Part shown: positions 47,530 through 54,150 of the stretch, one piece after another
Position numbering within the stretch: position 1 is the first letter of the stretch
How the letters are laid out: the number at the start of each line of letters is the position of its first letter
Assembly: GCA_017303995.1 (NCBI GenBank)
Contig: JAFLBE010000018.1
Coordinates: 1-64,000 of the forward strand
Direction: 5' to 3'
Length of the DNA: 64,000 bases
From: Bacteroidota bacterium
GTDB lineage: Bacteria; Bacteroidota; JABWAT01
Program-made: the position numbers and the translations under genes
The notes under the pieces: model-generated
Databases searched by the model: none
The model's input: the letters and a program-made list of their open reading frames with translations, nothing else
What the model was told of the DNA's origin: nothing

Positions 47530-47946
47530 ATGACACAACCCGTTGTTTTTGTTACCCGAAAACTTCATTTCAATGCGGCTCACCGGTTATTTAATCCCTC
47601 TTTTTCCAATGAAAAAAATGACGAGATTTTTGGCAAATGTAACAATGCCAACGGTCATGGCCATAATTATGAAATTGAAGTGACAGTTTCGGGTCAAATT
47701 GATCCTGAAACTGGCTATGTCATTGATCTAAAAGTCCTGAAAGATATCGTTGACCGGCTGATTGTTGAAGAGTGCGATCATCGGCATTTGAATTTCGATG
47801 TTCCATGGCTTAAGGGAATTAATCCTACCGCAGAGAATTTGGTTGTGGCTTTCTGGAACCGGCTGGCTGGAAGTTTTAAGCAAGGAAAATTACATGTCAT
47901 CAGACTTTACGAAACAGAAAGAAACTATGTCGAATATTTTGGATAA
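47530..47946 (+). CDS. 6-pyruvoyl-tetrahydropterin synthase
   Basis: A 138-residue T-fold protein. Motifs point to true PTPS rather than Que[19 protein letters not shown] matches the animal-type signature. The predicted zinc ligands His18, His43 and His45 and the residues Cys37, Asp83, His84 and Glu128 each fall exactly five positions before their rat PTPS counterparts as I remember them (23, 48, 50, 42, 88, 89, 133). The enzyme turns dihydroneopterin triphosphate into 6-pyruvoyl-tetrahydropterin. It overlaps folE by 53 nt, and an SDR gene follows. QueD-type activity cannot be excluded without alignment. Confidence 0.85.
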
Positions 47947-48538
47947 TGAAGAGTCTTTGGAAGGAATTGATCCTTCTGTTCTTGAAATACGGGATCATAT
48001 GCACGGTATTATCAAGTTATTGGGGGAAAACCCCGATCGGGAAGGCTTGTTGAAAACTCCGCTTCGGGTTGCAAAAGCCTTAACCTTTCTCACGTCTGGA
48101 TACCATCAGGATGCAGAAAAAATTCTTACAAGTGCACTCTTCAGAGAAAGATATGATGAAATGGTACTTGTAAAGGATATCGATTTTTACTCAATGTGTG
48201 AACATCACATGCTTCCATTCTTCGGGAAGGCTCACATTGCATACATTCCCAATGGTAAAATTGTCGGACTTTCCAAGTTGCCACGATTGGTTGATGTTTT
48301 CGCCCGCAGAATGCAGGTTCAGGAAAGAATGACTCAGGAACTTAAAAACACAATTCAATCAGTACTCGAACCTCAGGGTGTTGCAGTTGTTATCGAAGCC
48401 AGTCACATGTGTATGATGATGCGTGGCGTTCAAAAACAAAACTCAACAACCATTACCTCTGCGATGTCGGGTGTTTTTCTGAATGACAATGCAACCCGTT
48501 CTGAGTTTATGCGATTGGTAAGAGGATCCTCTTTATAA
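47894..48538 (+). CDS. folE: GTP cyclohydrolase I
   Basis: A 214-residue enzyme making dihydroneopterin triphosphate from GTP. The ATG at 47894 has AAGGAAAA 8 nt upstream; the frame extends back to 47798 but without family match, and an ATG at 47927 is the other candidate. Core motifs are [37 protein letters not shown] in part (zinc cysteine and histidine), [20 protein letters not shown], and the second zinc cysteine in [12 protein letters not shown], with the TSAMSG end motif. It overlaps the PTPS gene upstream and the SDR gene by 1 nt downstream, so the three are one unit. Confidence 0.95.
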
Positions 48539-49248
48539 TGGGAAATTTGATAAAAACTGTTGTTATCACTGGTGCTGGTAAAGGAATAGGGAGAGAACTT
48601 TCGCTTGTTTTTCTGAATGCAGGATGGAATGTTGTGGCTTTTTCAAGAACAGAATCTGATCTCGATTCTTTGGTTGAGGAAAGTCGGCAGTTAAAAGGAA
48701 GCATTCATACAATTATTGGTGATGCGACCGTTTCTGGTGATATTAAAAGGTTGGTTTCAGAAACTACCCAACATTTTGGTTATGCTGATGTACTTGTAAA
48801 TAATGCAGGTGTTTTCAAATCGATTCCATTTCTTGAAATGACTGAAGACTTTTTTTCTGATCAGTCGAAGGCCAATGCGCTCAGTACCTTTTTAGTCTCC
48901 CAGCAATTTGGCTTACAGATGAAAACCAGAAAAGCCGGGCATATTATCAATATTATTTCAGTTGCAGCAAAACGTCCCTTTGTCGGTTCCGTTGGCTACT
49001 GTTCAGCTAAATCTGCTCAGGATGGACTTGGAAAAGTTATGCGGGAAGAATTGAAACCTTACAACATAAGAGTAACTAACGTTTACCCTGGTGCTGCTTT
49101 TACAAATTCCTGGGCTGGATCTGGTGTTGATGAAAACCGTCTGATGAAAGCAAGTGATGTTGCAGAAACCATATTCAAGGTTGTAAACCTCGATGACAAT
49201 ATGGTAATTGAAGAAATAGTATTGCGCCCTGTTGCCGGGGATCTTTGA
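48538..49248 (+). CDS. SDR, probable sepiapterin reductase
   Basis: A 236-residue classical SDR. Features are VVITGAGKGIGRELSL (NADP site), LVNNAGVF, the catalytic serine in IISVAAKRP, and YCSAK (Tyr and Lys). Compared from memory with the Chlorobium tepidum sepiapterin reductase, the matches include TGAGKGIGR, the ISVAA-K and YC-S-K surroundings, the VTNVYPGAAFT region, and the ending EEIVLRPVAGDL. It lies in one unit with PTPS and folE (1-nt overlap), which supports reduction of 6-pyruvoyl-tetrahydropterin to tetrahydrobiopterin. A general carbonyl reductase is the alternative. Confidence 0.75.
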   Translation: MGNLIKTVVITGAGKGIGRELSLVFLNAGWNVVAFSRTESDLDSLVEESRQLKGSIHTIIGDATVSGDIKRLVSETTQHFGYADVLVNNAGVFKSIPFLEMTEDFFSDQSKANALSTFLVSQQFGLQMKTRKAGHIINIISVAAKRPFVGSVGYCSAKSAQDGLGKVMREELKPYNIRVTNVYPGAAFTNSWAGSGVDENRLMKASDVAETIFKVVNLDDNMVIEEIVLRPVAGDL

Positions 49249-49345: not shown

Positions 49346-50194
49346 TTAATTGATTTTGAATTTAACAGGAATGAGAACTGTACTGGTGACTTTTTTTCCT
49401 GAATGGGTTGCTGGTATAAACTTACTCAGATAAATGGTTTCAACGGCGGCTTCATCCAATAAGGGGTCAACTGATTTTATAATATCACATTGGATTGCAG
49501 TTCCATTTTGATCTACAGTTACGTTAACCTTTACAGTTCCCTGAATCTGACGTTTAATGGCAAGTTCCGGGTACTTGATGTTCTTGATAATTCCACCAAG
49601 GCCACCTTCTGGCTCAGGAAGCTGGTCAGGATTTGCAACATAATCTGGAACATCGCCGGTTGTTGCTTCTGATTCAATGACCGCAGGTTCCTCATTTACC
49701 GGAGAAATAATAGCAGGCTCAGACTCCGTTTTTGCAATTTCAGTTTGGGGAATCTCAGTTTTAGCAACTTCGTTATTCTTCGGCAATTCCATTCGTGGAT
49801 TGGTTGGCAAATCCATTTTAACCGGTTGAGCAACAGGGGCAGTAACAATTTGCTCTTTACTTACAAGATCAAATTTAATTTTTAGGGTAAAACGAGGATT
49901 TAATCTGATGTTTTTACTGAAATCATTGAATCCGGTTTTTTTTGCAGATATCAAATACTGTCCGGGTGGAATGTTAACAAAACTAAAATTTCCATTTCTG
50001 TCAGATCGGGTTGAAAACTTTAGTGCGCCATTTTCAAAAAGGGTAATTGTTACACCCGAAACACCTCCAACGCCAACATTACTTCCAACTTTTCCGCTAA
50101 TTCTGCTGAAATCATCTTCAATAGACGTTGCCCAGCAATTCATTGCAATAAAAACCAAAAAACCAAACAAAAGAATTAACTTTTTCTTTAACAT
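49346..50194 (-). CDS. TonB-like protein with carboxypeptidase-regulatory domain
   Basis: A 282-residue envelope protein. It has a signal sequence (about 1-23, ending CWATS), then a carboxypeptidase-regulatory-like beta domain (ISGKVGSNVGVGGVSGVTIT to SKNIRLNPRF, about 32-105), a proline/glutamate-rich linker (about 115-195), and a TonB C-terminal domain (YPELAIKRQIQGTVKVNVTV to VLIPVKFKIN, about 205-282). Usual TonB proteins anchor in the inner membrane and have no such beta domain. GGAGG 5 nt before the ATG fixes the start. It may transmit energy, or link outer-membrane complexes to other proteins. Confidence 0.82.
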   Translation of the reverse strand: MLKKKLILLFGFLVFIAMNCWATSIEDDFSRISGKVGSNVGVGGVSGVTITLFENGALKFSTRSDRNGNFSFVNIPPGQYLISAKKTGFNDFSKNIRLNPRFTLKIKFDLVSKEQIVTAPVAQPVKMDLPTNPRMELPKNNEVAKTEIPQTEIAKTESEPAIISPVNEEPAVIESEATTGDVPDYVANPDQLPEPEGGLGGIIKNIKYPELAIKRQIQGTVKVNVTVDQNGTAIQCDIIKSVDPLLDEAAVETIYLSKFIPATHSGKKVTSTVLIPVKFKIN

Positions 50195-50613
50195 TAAGCC
50201 TCCAAGCAGCCAGTTATTTATAATATAAGATAAAAGTAAGGATTATATTACGAATAGACAATGATATTTAAGTGATCAGATGATTATACTTTAGTTAATA
50301 ATGTAGCTTCCCTGCTTAATCTTTATCGCAAGAGTTACATTATATGACACAGGTCACATATTCAGCTATATTTATCTGTAATTTATAACAAAAATAAACT
50401 TATTTATAGCAATGTATAAGCAAATGACAGTTGAATCGTGACTTTTTCCAGATGGAAGCGTTTTTCATTTAATTGAATTAATTTTCAAGCTTGAATTCCG
50501 TACTTATTTACAATCTCTTGTTTATTAATCGTAAACTAATTGGTTGTTTAGTCAGTGATTTGAATCTGCCAGTTAAAAAGGATATTTTTATCAATAAACC
50601 ATGAGGAATGACC
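50195..50613. other. AT-rich divergent intergenic region, 419 nt
   Basis: No gene is seen between the TonB-like gene and the proline dehydrogenase gene, which are transcribed away from each other. The region must hold both promoters. Visible elements are an AT-only dyad TAATATAA/TTATATTA (50221-50250) and a TGAC-ACAG-GTCA dyad at 50345-50356. Neither could be tied to a known regulator. Confidence 0.6.
50345..50356. promoter_or_regulatory. Possible regulator site, TGAC-N4-GTCA dyad
   Basis: TGAC, 4 nt, GTCA, flanked by ATA on the left and CATA on the right. It has the size of a CRP/FNR- or TetR-type operator and lies in the divergent region, where a regulator could act on either gene. Such short dyads also arise by chance. 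Confidence 0.25.
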
Positions 50614-51516
50614 ATGCCTTCTGTTTTTAATAAACTTATTGTAGCTGCCATACCAGCTATCCCAAAATTTATCGTTAGAAAGTTTGCAAGTCCATATATC
50701 GCCGGTGAAAAGCTTGAAGATGCATTGACCACTATCAAAAAGCTAAACAGTAAAGGTGCTATGGCCACTTGTGATTTATTAGGTGAATTTATTCACCATA
50801 AAGAGCAGGCAACCAGAGATAAAGAGGAATTGAAAAATCTTCTATTTGCCATTAATAAAGAAAAGTTGAACTCAAATGTTTCTTTGAAGCCGACCCAAAT
50901 GGGTTTGCTTCTTGATGAAGAATTTGCTTATCAGAATATTCGGGAATTGGTTGCATTGGCAAAAGAGCAGGGGAATTTTATCAGAATTGATATGGAGGAT
51001 TCTCCCTGTACCCAAAAGGAAATTGACCTTTACCTTCGTCTCAGAAAAGAATTTGACAATGTGGGTCTGGTTATTCAGGCCTATATGAAAAGAACCGATG
51101 CTGATGTTGATCTGTTAATTGCCAACCGGGCAAATCTTCGACTCTGTAAAGGAATTTATGTTGAACCGGAATCTGTTGCTATTAAAGATAAACAGGCAAT
51201 CCGGGATAATTTCTTAAAACAGGTTGAAAAAATGTTTGTCAATAAATGTTATGTGGGTGTAGCTACACACGACGAATTTCTGGTAGACGAAACATTGAAA
51301 CTTATAGAAAAACATAAGGTTAGCAAAGAAGATTTTGAATTTCAGATGCTTCTGGGTGTTTTGCCAAAGCTTAGAGATTCTCTGCTCGCAAAAGGGTTTC
51401 GCCTCAGGGTGTATGTGCCCTACGGGGAACAATGGTACGGATACTCAACCCGACGTTTTAAGGAAAACCCTGAGATTGCCGGTTATGTCGTAAAAGCCTT
51501 GTTTGGCTTAAATTAA
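50614..51516 (+). CDS. Proline dehydrogenase
   Basis: A 300-residue FAD enzyme that oxidises proline to pyrroline-5-carboxylate. Family features of the TIM barrel are IRIDMEDSPCTQKEIDLYLRL in part, GLVIQAYMKRTDAD, NLRLCKGIYVEP, VGVATHDEF, FEFQMLLGV, and the C-terminal RLRVYVPYGEQWYGYSTRR with the substrate-binding RR pair. The ATG at 50614 is chosen because GAGGA lies 6 nt upstream; 50608 would overlap that site. No P5C dehydrogenase is next to it. It opens a close-packed group of five genes. Confidence 0.93.
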   Translation: MPSVFNKLIVAAIPAIPKFIVRKFASPYIAGEKLEDALTTIKKLNSKGAMATCDLLGEFIHHKEQATRDKEELKNLLFAINKEKLNSNVSLKPTQMGLLLDEEFAYQNIRELVALAKEQGNFIRIDMEDSPCTQKEIDLYLRLRKEFDNVGLVIQAYMKRTDADVDLLIANRANLRLCKGIYVEPESVAIKDKQAIRDNFLKQVEKMFVNKCYVGVATHDEFLVDETLKLIEKHKVSKEDFEFQMLLGVLPKLRDSLLAKGFRLRVYVPYGEQWYGYSTRRFKENPEIAGYVVKALFGLN

Positions 51517-51526
51517 AAAGGAAATT

Positions 51527-51754
51527 ATGCCTTCTAAACAAATTCGGATTCTTCAGGAAAAACTGGCAGAGAATTTATCATTCCTATCCGGAAGAAAAGT
51601 GGTAATCATAACAAGTAAACAGTTGCAATTTACCGGATTGGTAGTTTCGGCTGCTGGTTCTGGTATCACCCTGAAAAATTCAAGAAACAGAAAACTGGTT
51701 TTTGCCTTAGCCGATATTTCTGAGTTATTTACAGATGAAATAACTGAAGCGTGA
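51527..51754 (+). CDS. Small Sm-like (SH3-barrel) protein, hypothetical
   Basis: A 75-residue protein. An N-terminal helix (IRILQEKLAENLSFL) is followed by short strands: GRKVVIITSK, FTGLVVSAAGSGITLKNS, RKLVFALADISELF. This order (helix, Sm1-like strand block with a turn glycine, Sm2-like block ending in hydrophobic-I-x-x-hydrophobic) resembles LSm/Hfq-type folds, but the Hfq Q8/YKH residues are absent. An AAAAGGAAATT site precedes the ATG. It lies 10 nt after proline dehydrogenase and 4 nt before the HisE-like gene. The fold is inference from pattern only. Confidence 0.6.
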   Translation: MPSKQIRILQEKLAENLSFLSGRKVVIITSKQLQFTGLVVSAAGSGITLKNSRNRKLVFALADISELFTDEITEA

Positions 51755-51758
51755 TTGG

Positions 51759-52229
51759 ATGGCTGTTACTATGATCCGACCCCAAAACTGCTGTCGGCTT
51801 TACGAAGAAATTGGGCAGAAACTTGCTTCAAAAGACTCATCATCCGGAAGTGTTAAGCTTTTCAACAAAGGGAAGACTGCTGTTTTCAAGAAACTTGCAG
51901 AAGAAGCCGCTGAAGTTTGGATGGCCGTCCGGTTTGAAAGTCAAGATGAACTTGCACTTGAGATTAGTCAGGTGTGGTATTATCTGATTTTGCTCTCTTT
52001 TTATTATCCTGAAGATCAATCTGAATTCTGTATATTTCTAGGTGAAGCTGATAAACAATTACTTGCCTCTGATCCATCTGGTAATTTATCAAAAAGCCTG
52101 GTACATACTTGTGTTGAACTGATTCGCGATGAAAACTTTCTTTCTCACTCAAAAACTATTTTTACTCTAAGCAGTGAAATTGCGAGACAAAACAAGGTCT
52201 CGCTTGCTGACATCCATTCTAAATTATAA
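51759..52229 (+). CDS. HisE-like phosphoribosyl-ATP pyrophosphatase with C-terminal extension
   Basis: A 156-residue protein of the all-alpha NTP pyrophosphatase group. LFNKGKTAVFKKLAEEAAEVWMA and LEISQVWYYLILLSF correspond to the HisE core KxxEEAxE plus the later acidic/aromatic helix, with the EExxE metal ligands intact. HisE is usually about 100 residues; here about 60 residues are inserted before a final KVSLADIHSKL helix that resembles the usual HisE end. With HisG 17 nt downstream, hydrolysis of phosphoribosyl-ATP, the second step of histidine synthesis, is likely. The conserved SYT near the start is replaced by SSSGSV. Confidence 0.75.
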   Translation: MAVTMIRPQNCCRLYEEIGQKLASKDSSSGSVKLFNKGKTAVFKKLAEEAAEVWMAVRFESQDELALEISQVWYYLILLSFYYPEDQSEFCIFLGEADKQLLASDPSGNLSKSLVHTCVELIRDENFLSHSKTIFTLSSEIARQNKVSLADIHSKL

Positions 52230-52246
52230 TATCCCCGGGAATTTAC

Positions 52247-53113
52247 ATGAAACCACTTTTTAAATTCAGGGTAGGAATACCCAAAAATGATCGTTTATAT
52301 CCAGAAATTGCAAGCTTGTTAACTCAGGCGTCAATCTGGCGAGATCCCAGCCGCCGTCGACTCTTTGTTGATCTTGAGAAGCAGGAAATGTCTCTTATTT
52401 TTGGACGTGCAAGCGAAATTGCACTTTCACTCGCAGACGGAACCCTTAGTTGCGGATTTACCGGCCGGGATCTGATACTCGAAAGCGGAAACACAGAAAT
52501 TGAAGAAGTTCTTGCACTTGGAATCGGTAAATGCTCCCTGGTTTTTGCTGTGCCCCAAGATCTGATCAATGAGCCAATTTCTTATTGGGAGGGAAAAACA
52601 ATTGCAACCAGCTTTACACGCCTTACCCGCGAATTTTTTGAGAAAAATGGAGTTTCTGTTCATCTGAAAGAAGTCACCGGTGGTGTAGAAGGCAAAGTAG
52701 CCACCGAGGAGGCTGATGCAATTGTTGATCTTACCGAAACCGGTACTACACTTGAAGCAAATGGATTAAAGATCCGTGAGCATCTGATCCAAACAGAAAC
52801 TATTCTGGCTGCCCGTAAAGAAGTGGTTAATGATCCCAGAATTGAACTGATTAAAACACGGTTAACCGGGGTCATGCTTGCCCGGGAATCGATCATGATT
52901 GAATATATGATTCCCAAAGAAAAATTGGGTGATGCAATTAAAGTTGCCGGCGGACAAAAATCGCCAACGGTTGCTCCAATATATGGCGATGACCGCTATT
53001 TTGCTGTCAGAATTGTTGAACCCCGGAACCGTGAGAATGAAATCATGGACAAACTCAAATCAGTTGGGGCAGTGGGTATTTTTTCTGTGTTATTGAACAA
53101 CACCCGGATCTGA
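52247..53113 (+). CDS. hisG: ATP phosphoribosyltransferase, long form
   Basis: A 288-residue enzyme that joins ATP and PRPP in the first step of histidine synthesis. The start FRVGIPKNDRLYPEIASLL, then the ADGTLSCGFTGRDLILE substrate loop, ISYWEGKTIATSFTRLTREF, and the PRPP loop EADAIVDLTETGTTLEANGL are all recognisable. A C-terminal ACT-like regulatory domain (from about 215) makes this the histidine-inhibited long form, without need of HisZ. Other his genes are not in the window, apart from the HisE-like gene next door. Confidence 0.95.
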   Translation: MKPLFKFRVGIPKNDRLYPEIASLLTQASIWRDPSRRRLFVDLEKQEMSLIFGRASEIALSLADGTLSCGFTGRDLILESGNTEIEEVLALGIGKCSLVFAVPQDLINEPISYWEGKTIATSFTRLTREFFEKNGVSVHLKEVTGGVEGKVATEEADAIVDLTETGTTLEANGLKIREHLIQTETILAARKEVVNDPRIELIKTRLTGVMLARESIMIEYMIPKEKLGDAIKVAGGQKSPTVAPIYGDDRYFAVRIVEPRNRENEIMDKLKSVGAVGIFSVLLNNTRI

Positions 53114-53115
53114 TT

Positions 53116-53526
53116 ATGATTTTCAATCTGGAAAATGGAATTCTTTCATCCGAAATAACTTCATTTTCAGTTGATCTTGCAGGCAACTTTACTACAAACT
53201 ATCCCGTCGTTTTTGCTGGTTTGTTTCGTCAGTTTCCATTCATAAACAACGAGATTTTCCTGCTTCCGCTTTCTGTCCAGTTTCGACCCTCACCTGACGG
53301 GTCAATCTGGCTGGACTGGACAGAAAGCGAAAAGCGTAATGAGGATTGGGCAGCCAGATTTGTTTTGACAGTTCTTGACCGGAGTTTTCAGGCAGCAAAT
53401 GAAATCTGTCGCCGCACCAATGAATTTGAGTTACAGATTGTTGTTTCAGAATCGGTTGAACCAGCCTGGATCACTTTATTTTCTGATCGGTTGAAGTCTG
53501 ATTATCAAGTTGAAGTCAGGTGGTAA
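53116..53526 (+). CDS. Hypothetical protein, 136 residues
   Basis: A complete frame starting 2 nt after the hisG stop. I do not recognise a family. The sequence is soluble, with a predicted beta-rich first half (ILSSEITSFSVDLAGNF) and a helix in the second half (ARFVLTVLDRSFQAANEIC). Tryptophans are frequent (four), including IWLDWTE. There is no signal peptide or membrane segment. Position suggests translation coupled to hisG. It is the last gene of the group before the rimP promoter. Confidence 0.6.
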   Translation: MIFNLENGILSSEITSFSVDLAGNFTTNYPVVFAGLFRQFPFINNEIFLLPLSVQFRPSPDGSIWLDWTESEKRNEDWAARFVLTVLDRSFQAANEICRRTNEFELQIVVSESVEPAWITLFSDRLKSDYQVEVRW

Positions 53527-53581: not shown

Positions 53582-53612
53582 TTGAAATCTGCCGTATTTC
53601 TTCTTATATTTG
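53582..53612 (+). promoter_or_regulatory. rimP-nusA-infB operon promoter, Bacteroidota type
   Basis: TTG at 53582-53584, a 20-nt spacer, and TATATTTG at 53605-53612, an exact TAnnTTTG element. Transcription would start near 53618-53620, just before the terminator-like hairpin at 53624-53656. Confidence 0.72.
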
Positions 53613-53623
53613 CAGGTCTTTGG

Positions 53624-53656
53624 AAAAGTGGCCCCCGTTCGGAGACCACTTTTTTT
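53624..53656 (+). terminator. Terminator-like hairpin in the rimP leader (possible attenuator)
   Basis: AAAAGTGG (53624-53631) pairs with CCACTTTT (53646-53653), and a small inner CC/GG pairing in CCGTTCGG may cap it. A T-run ends at 53656. It starts only a few nucleotides after the predicted transcription start and stands before rimP, so it cannot end an upstream transcript alone; it more likely tunes entry into the operon. Confidence 0.62.
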
Positions 53657-53673
53657 ATTTTATACGGTTTCAA

Positions 53674-54150
53674 ATGAACGATAAAAATGTACGGGATCTT
53701 CTGATTCCGATTGTTGATAAAGCCTGTGAACCTCATCAGGCCTTTCTTGTGAATCTGACAGTAACAGGTGATTCACGAAAAACAGTTGAAATTTCTGTTC
53801 AGACTGATGCCGGGATTACCAGTCAGCAGTCAGTTGAGATTACCCGGTCTATTAATGAGCAGCTCGGAGAAACCGAATTATTTGATTCTCCCTGGGATCT
53901 CCAGGTTGGCAGTCCCGGTCTCGGCGAACCGTTAACCCAGTTTCGGGCATTGAACTCTCAAATCAACCGTTGTGTTGAAGTGAATTTCCCTGCAGAGTCA
54001 GGCAGAACACCTGTTACCGGTTATCTGAGATCGATTGACGGACAGATTTTAAATATTGAAGAAAAAGTAACCAAGAAAAAAGAAGAGCCCAAAACTCATC
54101 AAATCAACTTCAGCGATCTGTTGAATGTGATTGTACAGATTGAATGGTAA
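53674..54150 (+). CDS. rimP: Ribosome maturation factor RimP
   Basis: A 158-residue protein needed for 30S subunit assembly. The ATG at 53674 is chosen over 53620, which would begin inside the leader hairpin. The N-terminal domain has LLIPIVDKACEPHQAFLVNL and the conserved SLIDxS-equivalent positions around VEITRSINEQL; LFDSPWDLQVGSPGLGEPL matches the classic Y-x-L-E-V-S-S-P-G-x-x-R-P-L motif. The C-terminal SH3-like domain is complete. It leads the rimP-nusA-infB operon, 15 nt ahead of nusA. No strong Shine-Dalgarno precedes it. Confidence 0.92.
   Translation: MNDKNVRDLLIPIVDKACEPHQAFLVNLTVTGDSRKTVEISVQTDAGITSQQSVEITRSINEQLGETELFDSPWDLQVGSPGLGEPLTQFRALNSQINRCVEVNFPAESGRTPVTGYLRSIDGQILNIEEKVTKKKEEPKTHQINFSDLLNVIVQIEW

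Follow-up and report, generated by a model that had tools for sequence, protein, structure and literature searches.

We examined a group of five genes in a 64,000-nucleotide stretch of a Bacteroidota genome (contig JAFLBE010000018.1 of assembly GCA_017303995.1, positions 1 to 64,000; hereafter the window). Genes for proline dehydrogenase (proDH), HisE and HisG and two small open reading frames (ORFs), ORF2 and ORF5, follow one another on the + strand at 50614-53526 in the order proDH, ORF2, hisE, hisG, ORF5. This group is probably a heterogeneous his suboperon, in which a hisE-hisG pair is joined by proDH as an 'alien' gene and read as one transcript from a promoter before proDH. The feature is real yet mostly ordinary, with a known kind of pair and a variant HisE; gene identities, the pair type, its distribution and the conserved sites were established computationally. 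The assembly (4.31 Mb, 127 contigs) provides the source genome, G000, of a family of four genomes that also comprises G001, G002 and G003.

The gene names and the close packing given in the original prediction agree with the Pfam and NCBIfam identities and with successive gaps of 10, 4, 17 and 2 nt. Such spacing is ordinary for this window: in a rough selection of ORFs of at least 100 aa, 24 of 42 same-strand pairs had gaps of 20 nt or less, overlaps counted. All five genes are under purifying selection as coding genes. Ratios of nonsynonymous to synonymous divergence (dN/dS) against G002 were 0.033 for proDH, 0.162 for ORF2, 0.138 for hisE, 0.022 for hisG and 0.149 for ORF5, and are rough, with dS at 1.6-2.5 and close to saturation. 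The row obtained for ORF2 of G001 was spurious and was discarded.

The pair lies apart from the other his genes, an arrangement of a known kind. The survey covered hisG, hisE, hisI, hisF, hisA, hisH, hisD and hisC, with hisF, hisA, hisH and hisC named by eye from their sequences. The original prediction had proposed looking for the other his genes elsewhere, and these were found: contig 66 carries hisI, hisF, hisA and hisH together (as hisH-A-F-I), and contig 45 carries hisD and hisC. A profile built from the four family HisE matched 74 of 394 Bacteroidota genomes, family included. Outside the family, 16 Bacteroidota genomes had a HisE match at E < 1e-14, and by coordinates hisG stood directly downstream in all 16. 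The same arrangement, a HisE of this type followed by hisG, occurred in seven of eight actinobacterial genomes; G401, the remaining one, gave no PRA-PH match. No HisI match was beside, in front of or fused to hisE in the fetched stretches of 23 pair loci, and HisI accompanied HisE in 10/10 HisIE loci read from other Bacteroidota. Weak HisE matches (E 5e-5 to 7e-4, in frames 100-124 aa long) came from eleven genomes of another group (f16); where their hisG was visible, it lay thousands of bases off or on a different contig.

HisE scored 53.2 bits with TIGR03188 (cut-off 42.7) and 21.3 bits with Pfam PRA-PH (PF01503), which is exactly the Pfam cut-off of 21.3. It was the sole PRA-PH match in G000. 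In G001, G002 and G003 no PRA-PH match reached E 0.001, so this branch of HisE is almost invisible to the Pfam model. The EExxE stretch is kept. The second signature, E[IL]SQ, was present in all 27 pair-type HisE (four family members counted), and ExxD in all 12 other HisE or HisIE read; this comparison used HisE rows from 39 of 50 loci, with the ExxD of five HisIE rows read by eye. With TIGR03188 over its cut-off and both signatures present, the earlier description as 'HisE-like' holds, and the protein is a predicted pair-type phosphoribosyl-ATP pyrophosphatase. Its structural relatives were 1yxb, 3c90 and 1y6x; we take 1y6x and 3c90 to be from M. tuberculosis and 1yxb to be from Streptomyces. 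The family HisE is nevertheless a variant, since pair-type chains end about 20 aa past the second stretch: 81-83 residues follow it in all four family members, whereas each of the 23 pair-type HisE from elsewhere has 20. This C-terminal extension of approximately 60 residues is specific to the family. Comparison of the N-terminal with the C-terminal half by hhalign gave a probability of 0.6 and no support for a tandem duplication within HisE.

The exchange of ExxD for ExxQ and the gain of about 60 residues might mean that this protein is a HisG partner which has lost catalysis and is not a working enzyme. Faster divergence than HisG (dN 0.217 vs 0.037 between G000 and G002, about six-fold) and the unusual tail speak for this. 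The solved chains 1yxb, 3c90 and 1y6x all carry EISQ, however, which rules out catalysis loss as a deduction from ExxQ. Every one of the 23 pair-type HisE read outside the family carries E[IL]SQ as well, EExxE is retained and G000 holds no other PRA-PH match. We consider such a loss highly improbable.

HisG is a single-copy gene in the genome and is of the long form, with a catalytic domain (PF01634, 142.1 bits) and a C-terminal regulatory domain (HisG_C, PF08029, 59.4 bits); TIGR00070 and TIGR03455 were over cut-off, and the structural relatives were 2vd3, 5lht, 1nh7 and 1h3d. Identity was 76-95% within the family, approximately 28-35% to the other HisG compared and 29-33% to seven actinobacterial HisG. 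In a tree of 39 rows (duplicate loci L165, L167-L174 and L176 left out), HisG from 15 pair-bearing Bacteroidota and seven Actinobacteria formed one clade (95/97). Thirteen other Bacteroidota, an uneven sample of best matches, formed a separate clade (100/99). The branch leading to the four family HisG, 3.15 changes per column long, joined between both clades. It is too long for the family HisG to be assigned to the pair clade or kept apart from it.

ProDH scored 113.6 bits with Pfam Pro_dh (cut-off 27). Its best solved relatives were 2ekg/2g37, 5m42 and 4h6q, the first aligned over 276 residues; 2ekg and 2g37 are presumably proline dehydrogenase of Thermus. All four family genomes share the start codon ATG at 50614, whereas an alternative ATG six bases upstream, at 50608, was rejected because ACG replaces it in G001 and CCG does so in G003. 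Two metagenome-assembled genomes (MAGs) labelled 'Bacteroidetes bacterium' carry ProDH of 91% and 82% identity. In a MAG with the title Deferribacteraceae (L011:4297-6900), the gene immediately upstream of proDH was named by eye as Δ1-pyrroline-5-carboxylate (P5C) dehydrogenase. This pairing is the expected proline arrangement and is missing in the family.

The comparison of gene order proposed in the original prediction gave a divided result. Within the family the order is kept: proDH, ORF5 and rimP flank hisE-hisG in all four genomes, and all five genes are present in three of the four, G001 being without ORF2. Outside it, proDH was away from the pair in 12/12 loci. These 12, fetched at 10-16 kb each from the 16 other pair-bearing Bacteroidota loci, had no proDH, ORF2, ORF5 or rimP near the pair. 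Among ORFs of at least 80 aa at 43-60 kb of the window, 16/16 had counterparts in the sequence fetched from G001 and from G003. Other gene blocks are conserved as well (9/11 ORFs around hisD-hisC; 9/18 ORFs around hisHAFI in G001 and 8/18 in G003, the matches ceasing on both sides), and conserved order is therefore weak evidence of a functional tie.

These data bear on the possibility that the genes are functionally coupled, with entry into the histidine pathway co-regulated with proline oxidation (to P5C and on to glutamate) and ORF2 and ORF5 acting as regulators or accessory subunits. Coupling would agree with the order kept in four genomes, with recovery of all surrounding ORFs in G001 and G003 and with the strong constraint on both ProDH and HisG. 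We nonetheless judge it unlikely. Unrelated blocks are conserved too, though the hisHAFI block is unmatched beyond either side; the pair occurs without proDH in all 12 other loci; ORF2 is absent from G001; and aldehyde dehydrogenases that are candidates for P5C dehydrogenase (found with a query from L011 and named by eye) are on other contigs. Among the papers listed for proline dehydrogenase with a hisG/hisE operon, none dealt with such a link by its title. A functional link between proline and histidine is thus probably absent. The earlier idea that the mixture calls for a special reason is not supported, given the known hisE-hisG pair, the 'alien' genes described in his suboperons (PMC8305728, partial text), the separation of proDH from the pair elsewhere and the conservation of other blocks. 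The suggested role of both small proteins as regulators or accessory subunits was likewise not sustained, one of three genomes of the genus being without ORF2.

Sites at both borders were consistent with a single unit. The pattern TTGA-N18/19-TAnnTTT[G/A] precedes both proDH and rimP in each of the four genomes (8/8 sites); at the proDH site, the last base is A instead of G in G000 and G002. In a flavobacterium, TAnnTTTG serves as the -7 box and spans -12 to -5 (PMC9723704, partial text). Matches to the promoter consensus across the window were at chance-level counts, and for this reason conservation is the sole evidence for both sites as putative promoters. Between ORF5 and rimP, just past the second site, a hairpin followed by a U-run forms in all four genomes when 41-49 nt are folded alone (z -2.2 to -5.1), with one base pair changed on both sides. 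The MAFFT alignment placed G003 off by one base, which seemingly broke three pairs; folded alone, G003 pairs. When the 81 nt at 53600-53680 were folded whole, the hairpin was the centroid and not the minimum-energy structure (z -0.2). Every Rfam match was below the gathering score. The hairpin may both terminate the five-gene transcript and attenuate rimP-nusA-infB at its 5' end.

Features of the five-gene group and its borders (window positions)
Feature	Position	Strand	Description and evidence
Promoter-like site, TTGA-N19-TATTTTTA	50560..50590	+	Before proDH; in 4/4 family genomes, spacer 19 nt
proDH	50614..51516	+	Monofunctional proline dehydrogenase; Pfam Pro_dh, solved relatives, start conservation
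ORF2	51527..51754	+	Predicted 75-aa Sm-like small beta-barrel protein; AF2 model, Hfq/Sm/RimP matches
hisE	51759..52229	+	Predicted phosphoribosyl-ATP pyrophosphatase, pair type, family-specific C-terminal extension; TIGR03188, HisE structures
hisG	52247..53113	+	ATP phosphoribosyltransferase, long form, C-terminal regulatory domain; HisG + HisG_C
ORF5	53116..53526	+	136-aa protein seen in the family alone; no Pfam/NCBIfam match
Promoter-like site, TTGA-N19-TATATTTG	53582..53612	+	Before rimP; in 4/4 family genomes, spacer 18-19 nt
Hairpin then U-run	53622..53655	+	Between ORF5 and rimP; putative terminator or leader attenuator

Spacing and the sites at the ends suggest one transcript over the five genes, and gaps of 17 nt or less leave no intergenic room for inner promoters. 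Alternatively, proDH (with ORF2) and hisE-hisG-ORF5 could be transcribed separately and merely lie close together. The proDH-hisE gap is wider in G001, at about 43 nt if HisE starts at the TTG at L010:6950, and a promoter-like match is present inside hisG; both would fit such a division. It is at odds with the window gaps of just 10 and 4 nt and with the terminator-like sites, of which four were found in the region (3.1 expected from shuffles) and none between the five genes. Separate transcripts are accordingly a rather doubtful explanation.

Several observations weigh against the heterogeneous suboperon. The HisG tree does not show common descent of the pair, the family HisG sitting on a very long branch and not being placed with the pair clade. 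The synteny control was uneven, with 16/16 ORFs recovered at the window and 9 or 8 of 18 at hisHAFI. The match inside hisG, at 52374-52403, could be an inner promoter, though such matches are at chance level. The aldehyde dehydrogenase candidates on other contigs imply that the locus is no proline-breakdown operon either.

In the favoured reading as a heterogeneous suboperon, the promoter before proDH would yield a transcript of hisE-hisG and three genes from outside the pathway. HisG would join ATP and PRPP in the first step, and HisE would irreversibly hydrolyse the product in the second, pulling the first step forward; histidine would inhibit HisG at its C-terminal domain. The enzymes HisI, A, F, H, D and C would be supplied from the other loci. 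ProDH, the 'alien' upstream gene, would oxidise proline independently, and ORF2 may be a small Sm-like barrel that moved into the operon from a greA-tpiA type of setting. The hairpin would close the unit; rimP-nusA-infB, which follows, carries a promoter-like site of its own.

ORF2 reached the cut-off of no Pfam or NCBIfam family. Its AF2 model (pLDDT 90.4) has an N-terminal helix and a five-strand barrel, the small beta-barrel fold. The first Foldseek rows were RimP and Hfq (probability 1.00, E approximately 0.002, none < 0.001). Against M. jannaschii Hfq the model gave Z 9.0 and an rmsd of 1.6 Å over 55 residues; 85 chains were at Z 8 or above, and the best 50 of these 85 were mostly Hfq and Sm proteins. 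The earlier 'Sm-like' label is thus in keeping with the predicted fold.

The link by sequence was weak. A profile of 17 ORF2 members (family length 72-76 aa) searched against the PDB ranked the archaeal Sm-like 1m5q first (E 0.0015, or 0.046 for its best single stretch), followed by RimP (E 0.16). By hhalign, P was 0.0028 for RimP (score 22.1 vs at most 19.2 in 60 column shuffles) and 0.02 for Hfq (15.8 vs at most 14.7 in 60 column shuffles), suggesting that the RimP domain is closer to ORF2 than Hfq is; nothing was obtained against HisE or ORF5. Pfam gave weak matches to LSM14 in 2/17 members (best E 0.0011), to the RimP C-terminal domain in 1/17 (E 0.0008) and to eight more families (E 0.036 to 0.22), which agree loosely with a small barrel; the 14 NCBIfam families matched (best E 0.003 to 0.13) were uninformative. 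Pfam Hfq (PF17209) matched none of the 17 members at E 1 or below and nothing in G000, and the YKH stretch, invariant in nine Hfq, is absent from ORF2. ORF2 likely belongs to the barrel superfamily.

The ORF2 profile matched 40 of 148 genomes at E 0.01 or below: four family hits and 36 others. The weak hit counted for G001 looked like a yajC gene by eye and was dropped. Thirty of the 36 genomes outside the family belong to one group (f8), which we take for Chlorobiaceae from a PucC-like neighbour. The neighbourhood was read for 11 of the 36 outside loci, with greA on one side in 10/11 and tpiA on the other in 9/11. Relatives next to greA were 72-74 aa long and began MGKRQ (L212-L218, L220, L222 and L223; for example L213:7714-7935), and at L222 a further small ORF lies between the relative and greA. 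Hfq over the Pfam cut-off was found in 0/394 Bacteroidota genomes, with two weaker matches containing stops, and in 5/14 control genomes. Listings of literature on Hfq in Chlorobi, on Chlorobium Sm-like proteins and on greA-tpiA neighbours gave no description of the ORF2 family, and the available portions of PMC11697453 and PMC9029176 hold no usable statement on Hfq in Bacteroidota or Chlorobi.

ORF2 could represent a bacterial Sm-like family not yet recognised, whose members bind RNA and regulate post-transcriptionally in an Hfq-less part of the Bacteroidota; its gene, mostly placed between greA and tpiA, would have moved into the proline/histidine operon here. Taken as a whole this proposal is speculative and improbable. 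A candidate Sm-like protein of 72-76 aa is nevertheless easily tested for RNA binding, in a phylum without Hfq over cut-off. The family may matter more than the five-gene group, and the lead is worth following.

ORF5 was found, among the 148 genomes, in the four family genomes and in one marginal match, that of G101 (E 0.007), which contains a stop and was dropped. Five models had pLDDT values of 80.9, 63.9, 57.0, 52.6 and 45.1. Fold comparisons were weak: the best Foldseek E was 0.02, to a designed protein, and the best VIA match was HypF (Z 9.2), followed by Kae1, AnmK and TsaD. An RNase H/actin-like fold, suggested by these weak matches alone, was not used.

Upstream of proDH, at 47530-49248, a queD-like gene, folE (by eye) and a short-chain dehydrogenase gene lie head to tail. 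This cluster recurs in G001, G002 and G003 and is possibly a pterin or queuosine unit. At 49346-50194 on the - strand, divergent from proDH, is a gene for a protein with a carboxypeptidase-regulatory-like domain and a TonB C-terminal domain; G001 and G003 have a similar ORF at the equivalent place.

Several known systems offer comparisons for individual components. ProDH resembles the Thermus-type monofunctional enzyme, with the 276-residue alignment to 2ekg and ProDh_Thermus as the top NCBIfam model, but its 254.6 bits are under that model's cut-off of 500. ORF2 resembles Hfq and Sm proteins in its modelled helix and five-strand barrel (Z 9.0 to M. jannaschii Hfq) and the SH3-like C-terminal domain of RimP in its small barrel, RimP being among the first Foldseek rows. 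It differs from all three in its weak link by sequence, and from Hfq in having no YKH; ring formation and RNA binding are candidate properties.

The pair itself has close counterparts. Corynebacterium glutamicum has a hisEG unit, with hisE right before hisG and away from most his genes (PMC3896937, partial text), and the seven actinobacterial HisE read were all of the same ExxQ type. In contrast to the present group, the C. glutamicum unit is described alone, without proDH, ORF2 or ORF5 (PMC3896937, in the portion available); HisE here has about 60 extra residues and HisG here is divergent. The pair thus carries its own HisE signature, common to Actinobacteria, with a new C-terminal extension in this family. 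Within the same superphylum, hisE is upstream of hisG in Salinibacter (S. ruber), Longimonas and Longibacter, the same pair in the same order with separate hisI and hisE (PMC8305728, partial text). That source gives hisI and hisE as separate in 6/91 strains and fused as hisIE in most genomes, and describes 'alien' genes inside his suboperons of this superphylum. The five-gene group would be one more heterogeneous his suboperon in a superphylum whose his-gene organisation has been studied, set apart from the 12 other Bacteroidota pair loci examined at length by the proDH near its pair.

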